The position numbers were made by a program, and so were the translations under genes. Source: Synechococcales cyanobacterium CNB (GTDB lineage: Bacteria > Planctomycetota > Phycisphaerae > Phycisphaerales > UBA1924). From it: a stretch of DNA of 64,000 nucleotides. The DNA lies in assembly GCA_030263455.1 (NCBI GenBank), contig SZOZ01000002.1, positions 310,001-374,000 on the forward strand, written 5' to 3'. Under the pieces are notes generated by a model. It had not been told where the DNA came from. It saw only the letters and a list, made by a program, of their open reading frames with translations, and did no database searches. This document shows, piece after piece, positions 3 through 44,641 of the stretch (position 1 is its first letter; each line of letters opens with the position of its first letter).

Positions 3-839
3 ATCGTGGCGTCCGCGGGGACGGTCGAGTACAAGGGCCTGACGATCGGCCTCTGCTGCCCCGGGTGCGGGGAGCAGTTCCTCTCGTGGGACGAGGCCCG
101 CAAGGATGAGTTCGTGGCGCTCGCCAGGGCGAGGCGCGAGCCGGGGCAGGAGCAGCACGGCGCGAATGCTGAAAAGCAACCCGAGACGGGCGCGGCCGCC
201 GACGCGGAGCCGTGGACGGATCTGTACACGCTCGGGACGTGCCCGATCTCGGGGCGGAAGCTCGGCTCGATGGGCGATCCCGTGGTGAAGCGCTACGACG
301 GGCGCGAGGTCCGATTCTGCTGCTCGGGGTGCATCGAACGGTTCGAGGCCGACCCGGCGGCAGCATGGAAGAAGGTGGACGAGGCGATGATCAAGGACCA
401 GCGACCGTTCTACCCGCTGGAGACATGCGTTGTTTCGGACGAGCCGCTGAAGGAGGACGGGCGGGACGTGGCCACAGAGGTCGTGTTCAACAACCGGCTG
501 GTGCGGCTGTGCTGCCGGAGCTGCGTCAAGGAGTTTCGGGCGGACCCCCGCGCGTTGATGAAGAAACTCGACAAGGCCGCGGCGGACGCGCAGCGGAAGG
601 ACTACCCCCTGACGACGTGCATCGTGGCGGGGGGCGAGTTGGGATCGATGGGCGAGCCGTCGGAGATGGTGGTCGCCGGTCGGCTGCTGCGGTTCTGCTG
701 CGCGAGTTGCCACCCCAAGGTGAAGGCCGACCCGCTGCGTTACCTCCGGATCATCGACGAGGCGTGGCGCGCGAAGGGGCGATACTTGCCCGAGCGTGCG
801 GCGGACGAGCCTGCCCGTGAGAACCGCAAGAGCGACTGA
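3..839 (+). CDS. multi-TRASH/YHS-like metal-binding protein (5' end outside window)
   Basis: The reading frame is open to the left edge, so the N-terminus is missing; the GTG at 6 need not be the start. The visible 277 or so residues hold four copies of a small Cys module. A C-C-x-x-C element followed by an aromatic residue recurs (LCCPGCGEQF, FCCSGCIERF, LCCRSCVKEF, FCCASCHPKV). In the last three copies it is preceded by a Thr-Cys turn (TCPISG, TCVVSD, TCIVAG). This spacing resembles TRASH/YHS zinc-ribbon-like metal-binding domains. No catalytic domain is visible, and the linker at about residues 40-65 is low complexity. It converges on nosL with only 21 bases between the stops, so a role in copper or other metal handling for NosZ is plausible but inferred from position and cysteines only. 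Confidence 0.7.
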   Translation: MVASAGTVEYKGLTIGLCCPGCGEQFLSWDEARKDEFVALARARREPGQEQHGANAEKQPETGAAADAEPWTDLYTLGTCPISGRKLGSMGDPVVKRYDGREVRFCCSGCIERFEADPAAAWKKVDEAMIKDQRPFYPLETCVVSDEPLKEDGRDVATEVVFNNRLVRLCCRSCVKEFRADPRALMKKLDKAAADAQRKDYPLTTCIVAGGELGSMGEPSEMVVAGRLLRFCCASCHPKVKADPLRYLRIIDEAWRAKGRYLPERAADEPARENRKSD

Positions 840-24587: not shown

Positions 24588-25151
24588 TTACTCGCCGGCG
24601 AGCGCTCGCTCGACCCCCTCGACGATGCAGTGCAGGATGAGCATGTGCAGTTCCTGAATGCGGTCGCTGGTGTCGCCGGGGACGATCCATTCGAGGTCGC
24701 ACCGGGCGCGGAGCCGCCCGCCGTCGCCCCCGAGCAGGGCGACGGTGACGATGCCGCGCTCGCGTGCGGCCTCGACCGCCCGCACGACGTTCTCGGAGTT
24801 GCCGCTGGTGCTGAGCGCGAAGAGGACGTCGCCCTCGCGCCCGAGGGCCTCGACCCAGCGGCTGAAGACCCGCTCGTAGCCGTAGTCGTTCGCGGTGCAG
24901 GTGATGTGGCCGGGGTCGGTGCAGGCGATCGCGGGAAGGGCGGGGCGGTCGTGGCGGAAGCGGCCTGTGAGTTCCTCGCAGAAGTGCATGGCGTCGCAGG
25001 CCGAGCCTCCGTTGCCGCAAGCGAGCACCTTGCCCCCCGCGCCGAACCGCTCGGCGACGAGGGCGGCGGCCCGGGCGATGCGCTCGACGGCATCGGCGTC
25101 GGCGAGAAGCCGGTCAAGGGCGTCGCGGGCCTGGAGGAGCGATCGACGCAT
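24588..25151 (-). CDS. gmhA: phosphoheptose isomerase GmhA
   Basis: A 187-residue SIS-domain isomerase that converts sedoheptulose 7-phosphate to D-glycero-D-manno-heptose 7-phosphate, the first step of ADP-heptose synthesis for lipopolysaccharide core or glycan. Hallmarks are GGKVLACGNGGSACDAMHF, EELTGRF, FALSTSGNSENVV and DRIQELHMLILH, which hold the phosphate-binding Ser residues and the catalytic Glu and His. The ATG at 25151 matches the family N-terminus and has TACACT 6 nt upstream. A GTG 11 codons earlier is less likely. No other heptose gene is present here. Confidence 0.9.
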   Translation of the reverse strand: MRRSLLQARDALDRLLADADAVERIARAAALVAERFGAGGKVLACGNGGSACDAMHFCEELTGRFRHDRPALPAIACTDPGHITCTANDYGYERVFSRWVEALGREGDVLFALSTSGNSENVVRAVEAARERGIVTVALLGGDGGRLRARCDLEWIVPGDTSDRIQELHMLILHCIVEGVERALAGE

Positions 25152-25157
25152 AGGGGG

Positions 25158-25163
25158 AGTGTA
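25158..25163 (-). promoter_or_regulatory. -10-like box TACACT before gmhA
   Basis: TACACT stands 6 nt before the ATG at 25151, and no ribosome-binding site is visible. This is consistent with a leaderless gmhA mRNA. Confidence 0.45.
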
Positions 25164-25210
25164 CGGCGGGATCGTTGTTCTCACCCTTCAGAGCGAGGCT
25201 CGTTCCAGCC

Positions 25211-26170
25211 TCACCTGCGAGGGTGGTACTTGCGGTGGACGTCCTTGAGGTGGAAGCGGTCGACGTGGGTGTAGACCTGGGTGGTGGCGACATCGGCGTG
25301 GCCGAGGAGTTCCTGCACGGTGCGCAGGTCCGCGCCGCCCGCGAGCAGGTGGGTGGCGAAACTGTGGCGCAGGACGTGCGGATGGACGCCCTCCAGCCCC
25401 GCGGCCCGGGCGTGGCGGGTCACGATCTGCCAGACGGCGACGCGTTCGAGCGGGCGACCGGTGCGCGACAGGAAGACGCGGCCGAGGTCGCGCCCGTCCT
25501 CACGCACGAGGCGCGGGCGGCAGTCGGCGAGGTAGCGGTCGAGGGCGTCGCGGGCAGGCACGCCCATGGGCACGAGGCGCTGCTTGTCGCCCTTGCCTGT
25601 AACGCGGAGGACGCCGAGGTCGCGGACGAGGTCCGCGAGGGCGAGCGTTCCGACCTCGCTGGCGCGCAGGCCGCTGGCGTACAGGAGTTCGAGGATCGCC
25701 CGGTCGCGGATCCAGAGGGGGGGAGCGTCGTCCGGCGCGTCCGGGTCGGGGCGCGGGGCTGCGAGCAGGGCGCGCACCTGCTTCGGCGAGAGGACGCTGG
25801 GCAGGCGCTTCCAGCGCGTCGGCTGGTCGAGGTAGTCGGCGGGGTTCTCGGGGATGCGGCCCTGGGCGTGCAGCCAGCGGAAAAGCACCTTGATGGTCGC
25901 CAGGTGGCGGGCGACGGAAGAGGCCGCGAGGCTGCGGTCGCTGCTGAGCGAGGCGACGTGGGCGACGAGGGCGCGGGGCGTTACGTCGTCGGGCTTCTGA
26001 ACGCCCGCACGGCGGAGGTCGTCGAGCAGGTCGCGCAGGTCGCGGCCGTAGGCCTCGAGGGTGTTCGCGCTCAGGCCGCACTCGACGCGGAGGTAGGCGA
26101 GGAATGTGTCGCGCGTGCGCCGGAGAGCCGGGGGGAGGGTGTCGGTGGCTGGCTTGGTGCGCACGGGCAT
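25211..26170 (-). CDS. xerD: XerC/XerD-type tyrosine recombinase
   Basis: A 319-residue site-specific recombinase. The N-terminal SAM-like DNA-binding domain (FLAYLRVECGLSANTLEAYG, residues 24-105) is followed by the catalytic domain. Its residues are Arg in SGLRASE, the Lys in VTGKGDKQR, HVLRHSFATHLLAGG (H-x-x-R), LGHADVATTQ and the nucleophile Tyr in QVYTHVD. The length and lack of extra domains fit the housekeeping XerC/XerD pair, which resolves chromosome dimers at dif. XerD versus XerC is judged by similarity only. A 78-bp repeat copy begins 12 bases upstream of its start. Confidence 0.85.
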   Translation of the reverse strand: MPVRTKPATDTLPPALRRTRDTFLAYLRVECGLSANTLEAYGRDLRDLLDDLRRAGVQKPDDVTPRALVAHVASLSSDRSLAASSVARHLATIKVLFRWLHAQGRIPENPADYLDQPTRWKRLPSVLSPKQVRALLAAPRPDPDAPDDAPPLWIRDRAILELLYASGLRASEVGTLALADLVRDLGVLRVTGKGDKQRLVPMGVPARDALDRYLADCRPRLVREDGRDLGRVFLSRTGRPLERVAVWQIVTRHARAAGLEGVHPHVLRHSFATHLLAGGADLRTVQELLGHADVATTQVYTHVDRFHLKDVHRKYHPRR

Positions 26171-26181
26171 CGGTGCTGAAG

Positions 26182-26259
26182 GATCGGCGCGCCGGAGCGT
26201 GCGGGGCGAGAGGTTGGACGGAGCGAGAGGGGGAGTGGCCCAGGCGGGACGCCTGTGCC
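26182..26259 (+). repeat. direct repeat copy A bordering the MauE-like cassette
   Basis: This 78-bp segment matches 28235-28313 in the same orientation at roughly 80-85 % identity by eye. It shares GAGAGGT, GGACGGAGCGAGA and an identical 19-base tail CAGGCGGGACGCCTGTGCC. The tail is an imperfect palindrome (GGCCCAGGCG, then GGA, then CGCCTGTGCC; one mismatch). Confidence 0.75.
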
Positions 26260-26453
26260 TTGAGCGTCATTCACCAAGGAATGCGGTAATCCGTCGAAGG
26301 CATGCGACCGAGTCACGCATCCCCCGACCAACCGTCTACCAAGAGCACCCGGCCTCGATGCGTCTCCAGTGGCACAACTGCGCTTCGGTGGTACCAACTG
26401 GTTCGGCCGATCCACCCAAACATGCTCCTACCGATGATCGGGGATGAGGCGCG
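26260..26453. other. non-coding stretch upstream of the cassette
   Basis: The 318 bases between xerD and the MauE-like reading frame hold the repeat copy at their left end and the promoter at their right end. Between them I see no gene-like frame. The base composition looks clearly less GC-rich than the surrounding genes. Confidence 0.5.
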
Positions 26454-26482
26454 TTGCCTGCTTGACCCCCCATTGGTACTCT
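26454..26482 (+). promoter_or_regulatory. sigma-70-like promoter of the MauE-like cassette
   Basis: TTGCCT (26454-26459), a 17-base spacer, and TACTCT (26477-26482) stand 6 nt before the ATG at 26489. It is the best -35/-10 pair in the window and would give a leaderless or nearly leaderless transcript. Confidence 0.5.
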
Positions 26483-26488
26483 GGGGTC

Positions 26489-26963
26489 ATGATCGCGGAT
26501 CGAGTCCGAGCCTTGCAGCGGGAACGTACTGGCCCTTCCCGTTTGGTTAGGGGGGGGGGCGCTCTGTTGCGACCTGCTTGTCGGCGCGGTCTTCGTGCTT
26601 GCCGGAGTGCTGAAGTGGCTGCATCCTGCGCCTGCGAAGCACTTTGTTGAGCAGTTGACTTCGATGCAGCTGCCAACTGTGGGCGTGATCACTGTCGGCC
26701 TCTTCGAGTGGGTATTGGGGTTGCTGCTTCTTGCCGGCCGCTGACCGGTCTTTGCAAGCAGCATGGCCGGGCTGATACTCGCGCTCTTCAGCGGCATTCT
26801 GGGCGTCGCATACTTCCGCGGCATTCACGATTCCTGCCCTTGCCTTGGTGCTTCCACCTCGATCCCAACGGCGCTCGCCCGGAACGGAGTGCTGCTCTGC
26901 CTGATCGTTGTCGCGTTTCTGTCCCACCACACCACACTCATGAAGAGAGGAACTCCACGATGA
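26489..26963 (+). pseudogene. MauE/DoxX-like redox membrane protein, frameshifted and interrupted
   Basis: Three pieces together make one MauE-like protein. The ATG at 26489 opens a frame (MIADRVRALQRER) that runs into a ten-G tract at 26550-26559. Removing one G joins it to the next frame, which reads LLVGAVFVLAGVLKWLHP and VGLFEWVLGLLLLAGR, the first helices of the family. A TGA at 26742-26744 then interrupts it. The same frame continues with MAGLILALFSGILGVAYFRG, a Cys pair in HDSCPCLGA and RNGVLLCLIVVAFL, and ends at 26963. MauE-like proteins act with thiol-redox partners, and MauE is needed for the disulfide-rich subunit of methylamine dehydrogenase. Its end overlaps the Cys-rich gene as ATGA, so the two were once coupled. 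Confidence 0.65.
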
Positions 26964-27301
26964 CGTACCGTGTTCGACTCTTGATCAGCACCTTGGCCGC
27001 CTGTGCCCTTTGCTCCCTCACCCTCGCGTGCTATGCATCCATCGAGGACGAGGTGTTTGCCATCGAAGACAACGGTCTCGACTCGGCCGGGTTCGGCCGG
27101 CAATCATGCGGCGGCTGGTGCGGGAACACATGGTTCGAGATCTCGACCTGCCTGAACAGCCAGAAATGCTGCGGGTGGTACACCTGCGGGGCGTCCGGTG
27201 CGACCGGACAGAACACCTGCTGCAACTCGGGCATGGTCTGCAGCGATGGACGCCAGACGACACCTCCTTCGGCACCGCGTTGCCTCACCTCCGGTTCGTG
27301 A
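26960..27301 (+). CDS. small Cys-rich exported protein, probable lipoprotein
   Basis: A 113-residue protein. The ATG at 26960 has GAGAGGAA about 6 nt upstream. The N-terminus is a signal peptide, STLAACALCSLTLAC, whose last Cys could be lipidated. The mature part of about 85 residues has eleven Cys in patterns such as CGGWCG, KCCGWYTC and NTCCNSG, resembling a knotted extracellular peptide. No conserved enzyme domain is visible. It is coupled upstream to the MauE-like frame and downstream (TGATG) to a lipoprotein gene. The number of Cys makes disulfide bonding almost certain if it is exported; the function is unknown. Confidence 0.6.
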   Translation: MTYRVRLLISTLAACALCSLTLACYASIEDEVFAIEDNGLDSAGFGRQSCGGWCGNTWFEISTCLNSQKCCGWYTCGASGATGQNTCCNSGMVCSDGRQTTPPSAPRCLTSGS

Positions 27302-28128
27302 TGGCGGCGTCTGACGCTGCCACAGTTGTACGACGCATTGCGGTGGCGGCGGCGGTTGTGCTTACCGTCGCTGCCCTGCTTGTCAGCGCGTGTCGCACGC
27401 CTGAAGCACCGGCTGGACGCGCGCGGCCGGAGCACGAGTCGCGTCAAGCCTGGCTCGATCCTCGGACCACAAACCGCGATGCTCTGCAGGCCGTTCTGGA
27501 TGCCCTGTGCGCGCCGATGCTCAACCAAGGCGGAACCAATCACGAAGCCGCCTTGGACTTCAACGCTCCTCGGGATCTGTACGAGTGTGCGCGAGCTGTT
27601 CTCCTGTCCTTGCTTTCCGGCGACTCGACCCCGTACCTCGTTACGATGTCGGCGCGCGCCGCCACGATCGACCACCCGATGTGCCTGGCGATCGCTGAGG
27701 ACTGGTCCGAGTGGCGGCTGATCCACCCGCTCGACACGTCGCACATGGACGACGCACACCTGTTTCAGACGCTGTGGTCGGAACGTTCCACACGGAGGAT
27801 GGACATCCACGCTCTGGACCAGCAGTGGGCGGAGATCGGCGTAGGCATGTCCGTCGATTACACACGAGACAGATGGCCATACGAAGGGGTGCGCGCGTCG
27901 ATGAGCGTGTTTATCCCCCCTACCGGCCGTCTCTCAGCGTCCGAAGGCCAGAGGATCGACGGTACGCCATCCTCCGCCCACGTTACTGTGCGCGTGGTCT
28001 ATGGCGATGGACAAGCGGGAATGCTTCGTGTTAACTTCTTCTACGATACGACTGCGGGGCGGTGGTACCCAATCACCCTAAGCGTCGCGTCTGACTCGCT
28101 TGAGCAGTGGCCGTTCCCGTTCTTTTAG
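27301..28128 (+). CDS. lipoprotein of unknown function
   Basis: A 275-residue protein with a clear lipoprotein leader (VAAAVVLTVAALLVSAC, Cys near residue 27). The mature part has no repeat or motif I can name. It is a mixed alpha/beta sequence with FQTLWSERSTRRMDIHALDQ in the middle and a C-terminal strand-rich end (AHVTVRVVYGDGQAGMLRVN) typical of periplasmic domains. Its ATG shares a base with the stop of the Cys-rich gene. Codon choice and GC content look less extreme than in neighbouring operons, in keeping with an acquired cassette. Confidence 0.6.
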   Translation: MAASDAATVVRRIAVAAAVVLTVAALLVSACRTPEAPAGRARPEHESRQAWLDPRTTNRDALQAVLDALCAPMLNQGGTNHEAALDFNAPRDLYECARAVLLSLLSGDSTPYLVTMSARAATIDHPMCLAIAEDWSEWRLIHPLDTSHMDDAHLFQTLWSERSTRRMDIHALDQQWAEIGVGMSVDYTRDRWPYEGVRASMSVFIPPTGRLSASEGQRIDGTPSSAHVTVRVVYGDGQAGMLRVNFFYDTTAGRWYPITLSVASDSLEQWPFPFF

Positions 28129-28234
28129 GTCTCGATATGAGGCCACGGGGTCGTGACGGCGTTCTGTGCGCCCCATGTCCACGCACCGTCGGTACCTGCT
28201 CGTGCGAATCGGCAGGGTGGAGCGCGTTGAGGGA

Positions 28235-28313
28235 GATCATCGCGCCGGGGCGGGCGGAGCGAGAGGTCGGACGGAGCGAGATGAAGAACGGGCACAGGCG
28301 GGACGCCTGTGCC
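28235..28313 (+). repeat. direct repeat copy B, downstream border of the cassette
   Basis: Partner of the repeat at 26182-26259. Here the palindrome is perfect: GGCACAGGCG, loop GGA, CGCCTGTGCC (28291-28313). It begins 106 bases after the lipoprotein stop. Confidence 0.75.
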
Positions 28314-28329
28314 ACCGGGAGGGGGGTGG

Positions 28330-28359
28330 AAAGAAAAACGCCCCGGCGCGGGCCGGGGC
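28330..28359 (-). terminator. intrinsic terminator of the first flagellin gene
   Basis: On the minus strand GCCCCGGC and GCCGGGGC pair around a 4-nt loop and are followed by GTTTTTCTTT. This is a textbook hairpin with a T run, about 60 bases after the flagellin stop at 28421. Confidence 0.85.
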
Positions 28360-28381
28360 GAGTGGGGTTGGAGGAGAGGAG

Positions 28382-28398
28382 GCGGGCAGGACGCCCGC
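28382..28398. repeat. short palindrome after the flagellin stop
   Basis: GCGGGC, loop AGGAC, GCCCGC lies between the flagellin stop and its terminator. Its core GGC-AGGAC-GCC resembles the palindrome of the 79-bp repeat (GGCG-GGA-CGCC), so it may be a relative of that element. No gene occurs between 28129 and 28420; the stretch holds this palindrome, the terminator and repeat copy B. Confidence 0.45.
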
Positions 28399-28420
28399 TC
28401 CGTATATGGGTTCAGAAGGA

Positions 28421-29956
28421 TCAGCCAAGGAGGGCCAGGGCGGCCTGCGGCTGCGAGTTGGCGAGCGCCAGAACCTGGGTCGAGGCCTGGGCGAGGATCT
28501 GCGAGCGGGTCAGCTCGGCGGTCTCGGAGGCGAAATCGGCGTCGCGGATCGAGCTCTCGGCGGCGGCGGTGTTCTCGACCGCGATGCCGAGGGAGCGGAT
28601 GGTGGCGCCGACGGTGTTCTTCTGGAAGGCGCCGAGGCGTCCGCGGGCTGCGGAGATCTGGGCGATGGCCTCGCCGACGATCTTCTGGGCGGACGTGCCG
28701 TCGCTATCGACGATGTTGTAGGCGCGGCCGGCGGCGAGGTCGTTGAGGAAGCCGATACTGCTGTTGCCGAGCTTGCGGACCGCGAAGTCCGCGATGCCGA
28801 GGGAGACCTTGCCGGCGATGTCGACGGAGCCGGCGAGCTGGAAGGACGCGCCGCCGCCGGTGATGGTGAAGGCGGAGAGGGTCTGGAGCGACTGGGCGTC
28901 GGCGGTGGCGAGAGTGACCTCGAGGTCGAGGGTGTCGGTGTTGATGCGTGCGGTCTTGCCGCGCGAGGTGGCCGCGATGCCGTTGATGTTGATGCCGACG
29001 TCCTGACCGGAGTCGCGGAGACCGTTGGCGGCGGTGTTGGAGTCGAACTTGGCGGCGATCGTGGTGTTGACGGTGGAGGCGTCGTCGGACTCGAAGTGAT
29101 AGATGCCGAGGTTGTCGTCGCCGTTCTGGATGCCGGCGTCATTGACGACCTTGACGGAGACGAACTCGTTGGAGCCGAAGCCGTCGCTCTTGATGGTGAA
29201 GCCGCCGGTGAAGGCGCCCTCGGCAGCGACCGAGGCGACGAGGCCGGTCACGTCGGTGAAGCTGTTGATGTTGGCGACGATGGTGGCGAGCGAGGTGTTG
29301 GAGGCGAAGGAAAGCTCGCGGCTTCCCTTGCTGCCGGTGATCTCGATGGTGAAGTTGCCGGCGTTCGCGCCTCCGAAGTTCAGCGCGGTGCCGCCCATGG
29401 AGAGGAACATGATGCCCTGCTGGGCGGACTGGGTCACGACGAGGTCGACGCCGAGGCTGGAGCCGGTGAACTTGGCGGCGTTGATGCGGTAGTCGGTGAT
29501 GGCCGACGAGACGCTCTCGACCGTGAAGTCCATGTTGCCGTTCAGGAGCTTCATGCCCTGGAAGGCGGTGCTGCTGGAGATGCGGTCGATGGTCTGGAGG
29601 ATGGAGTCGATCTGGAGCTGGTTCGCCTGACGCTCGTCCTGAGAGAGGCCGGCGGAGTTCGAGCTGGCGGTGAGGAGGCCCTGGAGCTCGGTGAGCAGAC
29701 CGGAGATCTCCTGCAGACCGCCCTCGGCGATGTTCACGACCTGATCGGCACGCTGGGCGTTGGCGATCGCGGCGTTCGTCGCCTTGAGTTCGGCGCGGAG
29801 GGCCTCGGAGGCGATCAGCCCCGCGGGGTCGTCCTTCCCGCGGTTGATCCGCAGGCCGGTGCTCAGCCGCTCGAGCGACTTGCTGAGGTTCGAGTTGTTC
29901 AGGCCGAGCACGCGCTGGGCCACCAGGGACTGAACGTTCGTGTTGATCCGACTCAT
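28421..29956 (-). CDS. flagellin
   Basis: A 511-residue filament protein. The N-terminal D0/D1 region (MSRINTNVQSLVAQRVLGLN, LSKSLERLSTGLRINRGKDD, PAGLIASE) and C-terminal D1/D0 region (ESSIRDADFASETAELTRSQ, ending ANSQPQAALALLG) are canonical. The variable centre (about 150-400) contains a flagellin IN-type module (GSRELSFASNTSLATIVANI). It lacks a signal peptide, as expected for type III export. It is the last gene of the flagellar run, 336 bases after the other flagellin and followed by a strong terminator. CACGGAGGA precedes the ATG. Confidence 0.93.
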   Translation of the reverse strand: MSRINTNVQSLVAQRVLGLNNSNLSKSLERLSTGLRINRGKDDPAGLIASEALRAELKATNAAIANAQRADQVVNIAEGGLQEISGLLTELQGLLTASSNSAGLSQDERQANQLQIDSILQTIDRISSSTAFQGMKLLNGNMDFTVESVSSAITDYRINAAKFTGSSLGVDLVVTQSAQQGIMFLSMGGTALNFGGANAGNFTIEITGSKGSRELSFASNTSLATIVANINSFTDVTGLVASVAAEGAFTGGFTIKSDGFGSNEFVSVKVVNDAGIQNGDDNLGIYHFESDDASTVNTTIAAKFDSNTAANGLRDSGQDVGININGIAATSRGKTARINTDTLDLEVTLATADAQSLQTLSAFTITGGGASFQLAGSVDIAGKVSLGIADFAVRKLGNSSIGFLNDLAAGRAYNIVDSDGTSAQKIVGEAIAQISAARGRLGAFQKNTVGATIRSLGIAVENTAAAESSIRDADFASETAELTRSQILAQASTQVLALANSQPQAALALLG

Positions 29957-44352: not shown

Positions 44353-44494
44353 GGGACGGCGGGAGGGGCCGAGGGGCTTCTGCTCCTTGGGGCGGGGTCT
44401 TGTGGGCCGCATCGGTGGCCCCGGACCGGGGGAACATCCCCGCCTTTGCGCAGTCCGTGCGCTGCGGACGGCCCGTTCCCTAGCGCGAACGGAA

Positions 44495-44641
44495 GGTTCG
44501 CGCGCGCGAAGATGAGGTTCGCGCGCGCGAAGACGAGGTTCGCGCGCGCGAAGACGAGGTTCGCGCGCGGGGACGCGACCTTCGCGCTCGCGGAAACGCC
44601 GCTCGCGCGGGCGAGCCGGACCTTCGCCCGCCGGATTCGGC
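44495..44641. repeat. 21-bp tandem repeat, seven units
   Basis: Seven consecutive 21-base units start GGTTCGCGCGCG (first four) or a degenerate form of it. Units 1-3 are nearly identical and units 4-7 progressively diverged. Because 21 is a multiple of three, both strands stay open: plus reads FARAKMR, FARAKTR (twice), FARGDAT, FALAETP, LARASRT, FARRIRP, and minus reads units such as FARANLV. A 91-codon plus frame (44446-44721, TTG start) and a minus frame cover it, but neither has a ribosome-binding site or a recognisable domain. The rest of 44353-44698 between ppa and the LOG gene shows no gene. Confidence 0.75.

Follow-up and report, generated by a model that had tools for sequence, protein, structure and literature searches.

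A candidate phase-variable MauE operon with an exported ten-cysteine protein in a family of Planctomycetota

Phase variation by simple sequence repeats is a property of the contingency loci of Haemophilus, Neisseria and Campylobacter, and is best known from host-associated pathogens. Simple-repeat phase variation in Haemophilus has been described (PMC2651432, partial text). In the open-licence literature on phase variation in Planctomycetes and Phycisphaerae, as far as its available text extends, no description of a contingency locus from the phylum was found. The locus described here lies in a stretch of 64,000 nucleotides (the window) and shares with the known loci a 5′ tract of one repeated base or of short units, a unit length not divisible by three, a presumably exported function and, in some copies, out-of-frame alleles of otherwise open genes. 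Unlike them, it belongs to Planctomycetota, its tract is located in a MauE-type maturase gene preceding a Cys-rich protein, and different genera have different repeat types at the equivalent place; here it is known from assembled sequences alone.

The MauE protein of methylamine dehydrogenase (PF07291) offers a second comparison. The likeness extends to the family, to a membrane protein with a CxC motif and to an adjoining gene for a Cys-rich exported protein; however, no mau genes were seen among the neighbours read (xerC and flagellin in the window), and Pfam has no match for the Cys-rich partner. In Streptomyces, the candidate RiPP clusters of decRiPPter include some in which a mauE homologue adjoins a precursor with eight or more Cys, and a role of MauE in forming disulfide bridges is mentioned there as a speculation (PMC7794033, partial text). 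The arrangement of a mauE homologue beside a predicted Cys-rich precursor is common to both, but the Streptomyces clusters are machine-learning candidates, likened here by description. Short intergenic direct repeats in environmental bacteria are also represented by the TAACTGA repeats of Beggiatoaceae, which occur in 169 sets and were proposed as a post-transcriptional network (PMC4679880, partial text); unlike the repeats considered below, these consist of one fixed 7-mer. Over-represented G patterns have been reported in the planctomycete Isosphaera pallida (PMC4060949, partial text), and planctomycete G tracts are therefore no novelty in themselves.

The window is part of contig C2 of a 3.2-Mb genome in 17 contigs (G000). 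Three plus-strand genes are placed between a XerC-type tyrosine recombinase on the left (25211–26170, minus strand) and a flagellin on the right (28421–29956, minus strand), where they interrupt a run of minus-strand genes. Both this orientation break and the lower GC content noticed by the sequence-only reading were borne out: the GC of the unit is 0.625 vs. 0.704 for the remaining window, a drop found in all eight copies measured, and the GC3 of the three genes is 0.71, 0.79 and 0.72 vs. 0.92–0.95 for xerC and two flagellins. An Rfam search of positions 25000–29000 gave no match.

The body of the first gene (26562–26963, plus strand) scores 63.8 bits against Pfam MauE (cut-off 27) with the frames joined and an X placed at the stop. 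The G001, G213, G004 and G033 copies score 53.5–66.2 bits, and the match is above the cut-off in all five copies scanned (all except G002 and G035). A CxC motif, which we take to be the defining mark of the family, is present in the C-terminal half of all six aligned sequences and also in G035. The proposed MauE-like membrane protein was thus correctly placed as to family, but its gene lacks an open frame in the window; this break and the homopolymer at the start of the gene had escaped the sequence-only reading. The frame beginning at ATG 26489 (26489–26650, plus strand) passes through a tract of ten G (26550–26559; 13 G at the equivalent place in G001) and stops off frame after 53 codons, and the MauE body, split from it by this tract, lies in a different frame and carries an in-frame TGA (26742–26744). 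The MauE gene of the window is apparently off or decaying. Selenocysteine at the TGA was considered and rejected; a Cys stands there in G001 alone, with other amino acids in G002, G033, G213 and G004, and the codon is read as a stop. No match was found for the MauE profile in a sequence search of the PDB, nor for G001 MauE in defence and phage libraries.

The final TGA of MauE overlaps the ATG of the second gene (26960–27301, plus strand), which encodes an exported Cys-rich protein of 113 aa. Ten Cys of its mature part are invariant in all eight aligned Cys-rich proteins, window included. An exported protein with 11 Cys had been proposed; the precursor has 13 Cys, and a count of 11 would need cleavage just before C24. 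The third gene (27301–28128, plus strand) encodes an exported or membrane-anchored protein of 275 aa; unlike MauE, it and the Cys-rich gene have open frames in the window. Its description as a lipoprotein fits the lipobox-like LVSAC of the window and is not conserved, the close G001 homologue having LIGAR. Pfam gave no match for any of eight members of the Cys-rich family or any of eight members of the third family, and the window proteins are without a match in NCBIfam, PHROGs and PADLOC. The predicted structure of the Cys-rich protein is mostly beta (pLDDT 64.8), and that of the third protein has a pLDDT of 60.2; a structure search of both models against the PDB gave nothing at E 0.001 or better, and no fold is claimed. 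PDB sequence matches of the third-protein profile to FAP12 (E 0.0062) and two of the Cys-rich profile (E 0.15 and 0.55) were taken as chance.

The trio of MauE, exported Cys-rich protein and third exported or anchored protein recurs in seven genomes from five genera of the family; the MauE of the window was counted by hand, since its stop breaks the search pattern. These seven linked pairs support the suggested pairing of a MauE-like protein with a Cys-rich one. A 4-bp stop–start overlap of the two genes (ATGA or GTGA) is present in all seven, the window and G035 included. Translational coupling from MauE to the Cys-rich gene is uncertain because, in G000 and G001, the latter has an AGAGG/AAAGG site of its own just 5′ of its start. 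Codon-based comparison of G000 with its congener G001 gave omega values of 0.26, 0.17 and 0.29 for MauE, the Cys-rich and the third gene, with upper limits of 0.41, 0.29 and 0.40; by this measure, purifying selection acts on all three genes. The dS of the unit genes is 0.65–0.91 vs. 0.31–0.41 in the flanks, in line with either weaker codon bias or separate acquisition.

Related genomes show that the site may be filled or empty, as a check proposed by the sequence-only reading had envisaged. In G001, the three genes occupy the equivalent site between flagellin and xerC and are 74% identical. In the congener G002, flagellin directly adjoins xerC, and a copy of the unit is found elsewhere in the genome, as it is in other genera. 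The G002 match to the window stops near 26188–26197 and restarts near 28319–28336, and the terminator-like hairpin with a T run after the flagellin gene (28339–28360, minus strand) has its hairpin also at the G002 empty site. The three congeners are nearly equidistant (about 87–90% identity at this locus), so gain in G000 and G001 and loss in G002 are not separable from these three alone. Flagellin–xerC adjacency outside the genus favours a putatively empty ancestral site: flagellin is located about 110–270 bp from xerC in 15 of 28 xerC loci, and the adjacency also occurs in G004 and G062. A search of 61 genomes gave 30 xerC loci, of which these 28 lie outside the genus; the arrangement could be read in 15 of them and not in the other 13. 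An xerC match better than E 1e-66 was obtained in 57 of the 61 family genomes, and the match in the other four is no better than a paralogue would give.

Of 163 family genomes, 8 were matched by the Cys-rich profile (E 1e-5) and 18 by the third-protein profile. A Cys-rich gene lies just upstream in 11 of these 18 third-protein loci, with MauE as well in seven; in G035, G061 and G285 the Cys-rich protein beside the third gene is too divergent for the first Cys-rich profile. At the other seven loci, neither a Cys-rich nor a MauE gene was seen within 1,500 bp. In the phylum sample, the Cys-rich profile matched one of 392 genomes at E 1e-4, the window's own, with 12 candidates per genome scored and misses therefore possible. 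An order-wide single-sequence search gave 91 of 400 genomes at E 0.1 and eight at E below 1e-4, all eight in the family; the third protein was found in 14 of 400, again all in the family. No match was found in viral contigs searched with a four-row Cys-rich alignment. Judged from these genomes, the unit is variable in presence and place and patchy within the family. IS4/5-type transposase genes (DUF4096, DDE) adjoin the G004 unit (locus L139, 6868–7724).

A frameshift-capable simple repeat is present at the 5′ end of six of the seven MauE copies and of 7 of the 11 Cys-rich/third loci. These repeats are G10 in G000, G13 in G001, C12 in G002, a 10-mer repeated 2.6 times in G033, an 8-mer repeated 5.4 times in G213, an 8-mer repeated 14 times in G004 and a 13-mer repeated 4.4 times in G356, where the array precedes a Cys-rich gene that lacks MauE. 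The unit lengths (1, 1, 1, 10, 8, 8 and 13) are in no case a multiple of three. No such repeat was found in G035, which has MauE, nor in G061, G062 and G285, which do not. Each species is represented by one assembled sequence, and at least three of the genomes are metagenome-assembled.

The background consists of 13 arrays in 572,975 bases and 5 in 376,826, or 18 in 949,801 when pooled, and ranges from 0 in 57,733 bases (G033) to 5 in 86,770 (G002). The chance of overlapping an array is 0.0036 per random 200 bp and 0.025 per 1,500 bp; the latter serves as the cautious figure, since the scan of each locus took in about 1,500 bp of upstream sequence. With it, the binomial tail is 1.5e-9 for six of seven and 1.7e-9 for 7 of 11, and with G000 and G001 counted once it is 5e-8 for the MauE copies and 4e-8 for the Cys-rich/third loci, all at repeat thresholds set after the sequences had been seen. 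The arrays differ in individual weight. Those of G213 and G004 are the longest that pass the thresholds in all sampled sequence, and the G13 of G001 is the second longest G tract among those listed. G10 alone is ordinary in G000 (77 overlapping matches genome-wide), the C12 of G002 weighs less because that genome is rich in arrays, and the G033 array, at 2.6 units, is short. Other repeats seen are a G27 tract in G001 (C3, 131450–131476), either real or an assembly artefact; an octamer repeated 9.5 times between two genes that ORF reading suggests are for histidine biosynthesis (L178 on G001 C21, 10411–10486); and a 21-bp tandem repeat in the window (44494–44631), with a unit divisible by three.

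Five of the seven repeat-bearing copies have a promoter-like TTGNNN-(17–18)-TANNNT, an ATG 5–8 nt after it and the repeat 22–61 nt further on, inside the ORF. In the window, the element is TTGCCT-17-TACTCT (26454–26482, plus strand), 6 nt 5′ of the ATG, and is weak, sharing 7 of its 12 bases with the consensus when counted by hand; a strict consensus promoter scan of 26160–28440 gave no match. A looser pattern (TTGNNN-16..18-TANNNT-4..9-ATG) occurs in 46 of 10,000 random windows, the pattern having been chosen after the sequences had been seen. Neither form was found in G033, and only a relaxed one in G356. Read from the promoter-proximal ATG, the frame leads into MauE in G001 and G002 but not in G000, G213 and G004. 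MauE is open throughout in G001 and open in G033 and G035; in G213 and G004 it is out of frame only at the repeat and otherwise open. Gain or loss of repeat units in numbers that are not multiples of three would alter the reading frame in G000, G001, G002, G213 and G004. The best reading of these observations is an operon of maturase and Cys-rich protein that is switched by slippage, that is, phase-variable, and on balance we consider it somewhat probable.

The G000 and G002 copies bear on a different account, in which a horizontally acquired operon is decaying, several genomes carry MauE as a pseudogene and the repeats arose by neutral slippage in a leader of low constraint. G000 MauE has a second lesion, the TGA, and G002 MauE a later second frameshift of its own; these second lesions fit decay or assembly error, and the patchy family distribution would also be expected under decay. 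Against it stand the MauE omega of 0.26 (0.16–0.41, G000 vs. G001), the open genes of G001, G033 and G035, the restriction of damage to the repeat in G213 and G004, and the different repeat types at an equivalent place across genera, well above background. Decay appears unlikely.

The position of the arrays bears on whether MauE is tuned rather than switched, the repeats acting on transcription or mRNA start through leader length or spacing. The arrays of G033 and G356 begin close behind a −10-like element (in G033 by eye only) with no in-frame ATG before them, and in G004 a further two genes for exported proteins each carry a 13-mer array ahead of the ATG and behind a promoter-like element. 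Such tuning is nevertheless quite improbable, given that the array is 22–61 nt inside the ORF in five copies and that all seven unit lengths avoid multiples of three. The 13-mer arrays of G004 (L190 on C5, 1252–1289 and 3446–3481) follow TTGACA-17-TATGCT and precede two paralogous exported-looking proteins. The core of their unit matches the G356 array, and the repeat-at-start design may extend beyond the MauE operon.

The direct repeats around the window's unit, reported from the sequence alone, are real: they are 79 bp long (26182–26259 or 26260 and 28235–28313, plus strand) and 84% identical over query positions 1–78. Only these two full-length copies were found in the 3.2-Mb genome, the next matches being 35 and 23 bp. 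Both end in the same palindromic tail, as had been stated (26237–26259 and 28291–28313), but this tail is a dispersed palindrome. Its exact 18-mer AGGCGGGACGCCTGTGCC occurs four times in the G000 genome vs. none for a reversed control, and 12 further copies of the 26-bp GGCACAGGCGGGACGCCTGTGCCACC were read at unrelated sites in G000, G001, G002 and G019, a lower bound given that few candidates were scored per genome. Upstream of these 12 copies little is shared by eye, the longest partial matches being 35 bp and 42 bp. The palindrome GGCACAGGCGGGACGCCTGTGCCACC can form a hairpin with a 3-nt loop and is a possible terminator or REP-like element.

The repeats had suggested a cassette gained or lost by recombination between them. 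Their position around the G000 unit, degenerate tails at both ends of the G001 unit (flank match only 12 bp) and the absence of the unit from the G002 site agree with this. However, the G002 empty site keeps neither copy of the 79-bp repeat, the tail is dispersed, and flank-vs-flank comparison of the G002, G213, G004 and G062 units, the G033 and G356 contigs being too short, found no flanking direct repeat at any of the four. The palindrome is likewise absent at these four units and at G033 and G356, with little flank there. The repeats are thus not the unit's own ends in general, and insertion or excision through them is very improbable. A dispersed repeat and a fixed gene position in all relatives had been named as counter-evidence; the former was found for the tail, while the genes do not keep a fixed place.

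Slippage switching can be extended to a fuller mechanism, which is plausible and offered tentatively: slippage in the first codons of MauE would set, cell by cell, the folding or making of the ten-Cys protein, with the tract arising afresh, from different units, in several genera within a single family of Planctomycetota. In the phase-variable reading preferred above, the three-gene operon would move horizontally. Its MauE-family membrane thiol-disulfide protein would help to fold the secreted ten-Cys protein, presumably through disulfide formation, with the third exported or anchored protein as the probable partner of the pair. In most copies, the transcript may start at or beside the first ATG, as in leaderless expression, and a repeat with a unit that is not a multiple of three would lie within its first tens of bases. 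Slippage there would shift the MauE frame, and single cells in a population could switch MauE on and off; through the ATGA/GTGA overlap, switching may also alter translation of the Cys-rich protein. The products of the operon would serve a surface or secreted function.

Two protein families without a Pfam match come from this locus. Existing metagenome reads give direct access to the lengths of its repeats, which makes for a cheap test. If the phase-variable reading is true, protein maturation would be the target of a contingency locus in Planctomycetota, and fluctuating selection on a surface or secreted function would be indicated, for which predators, phages or neighbours are guesses.
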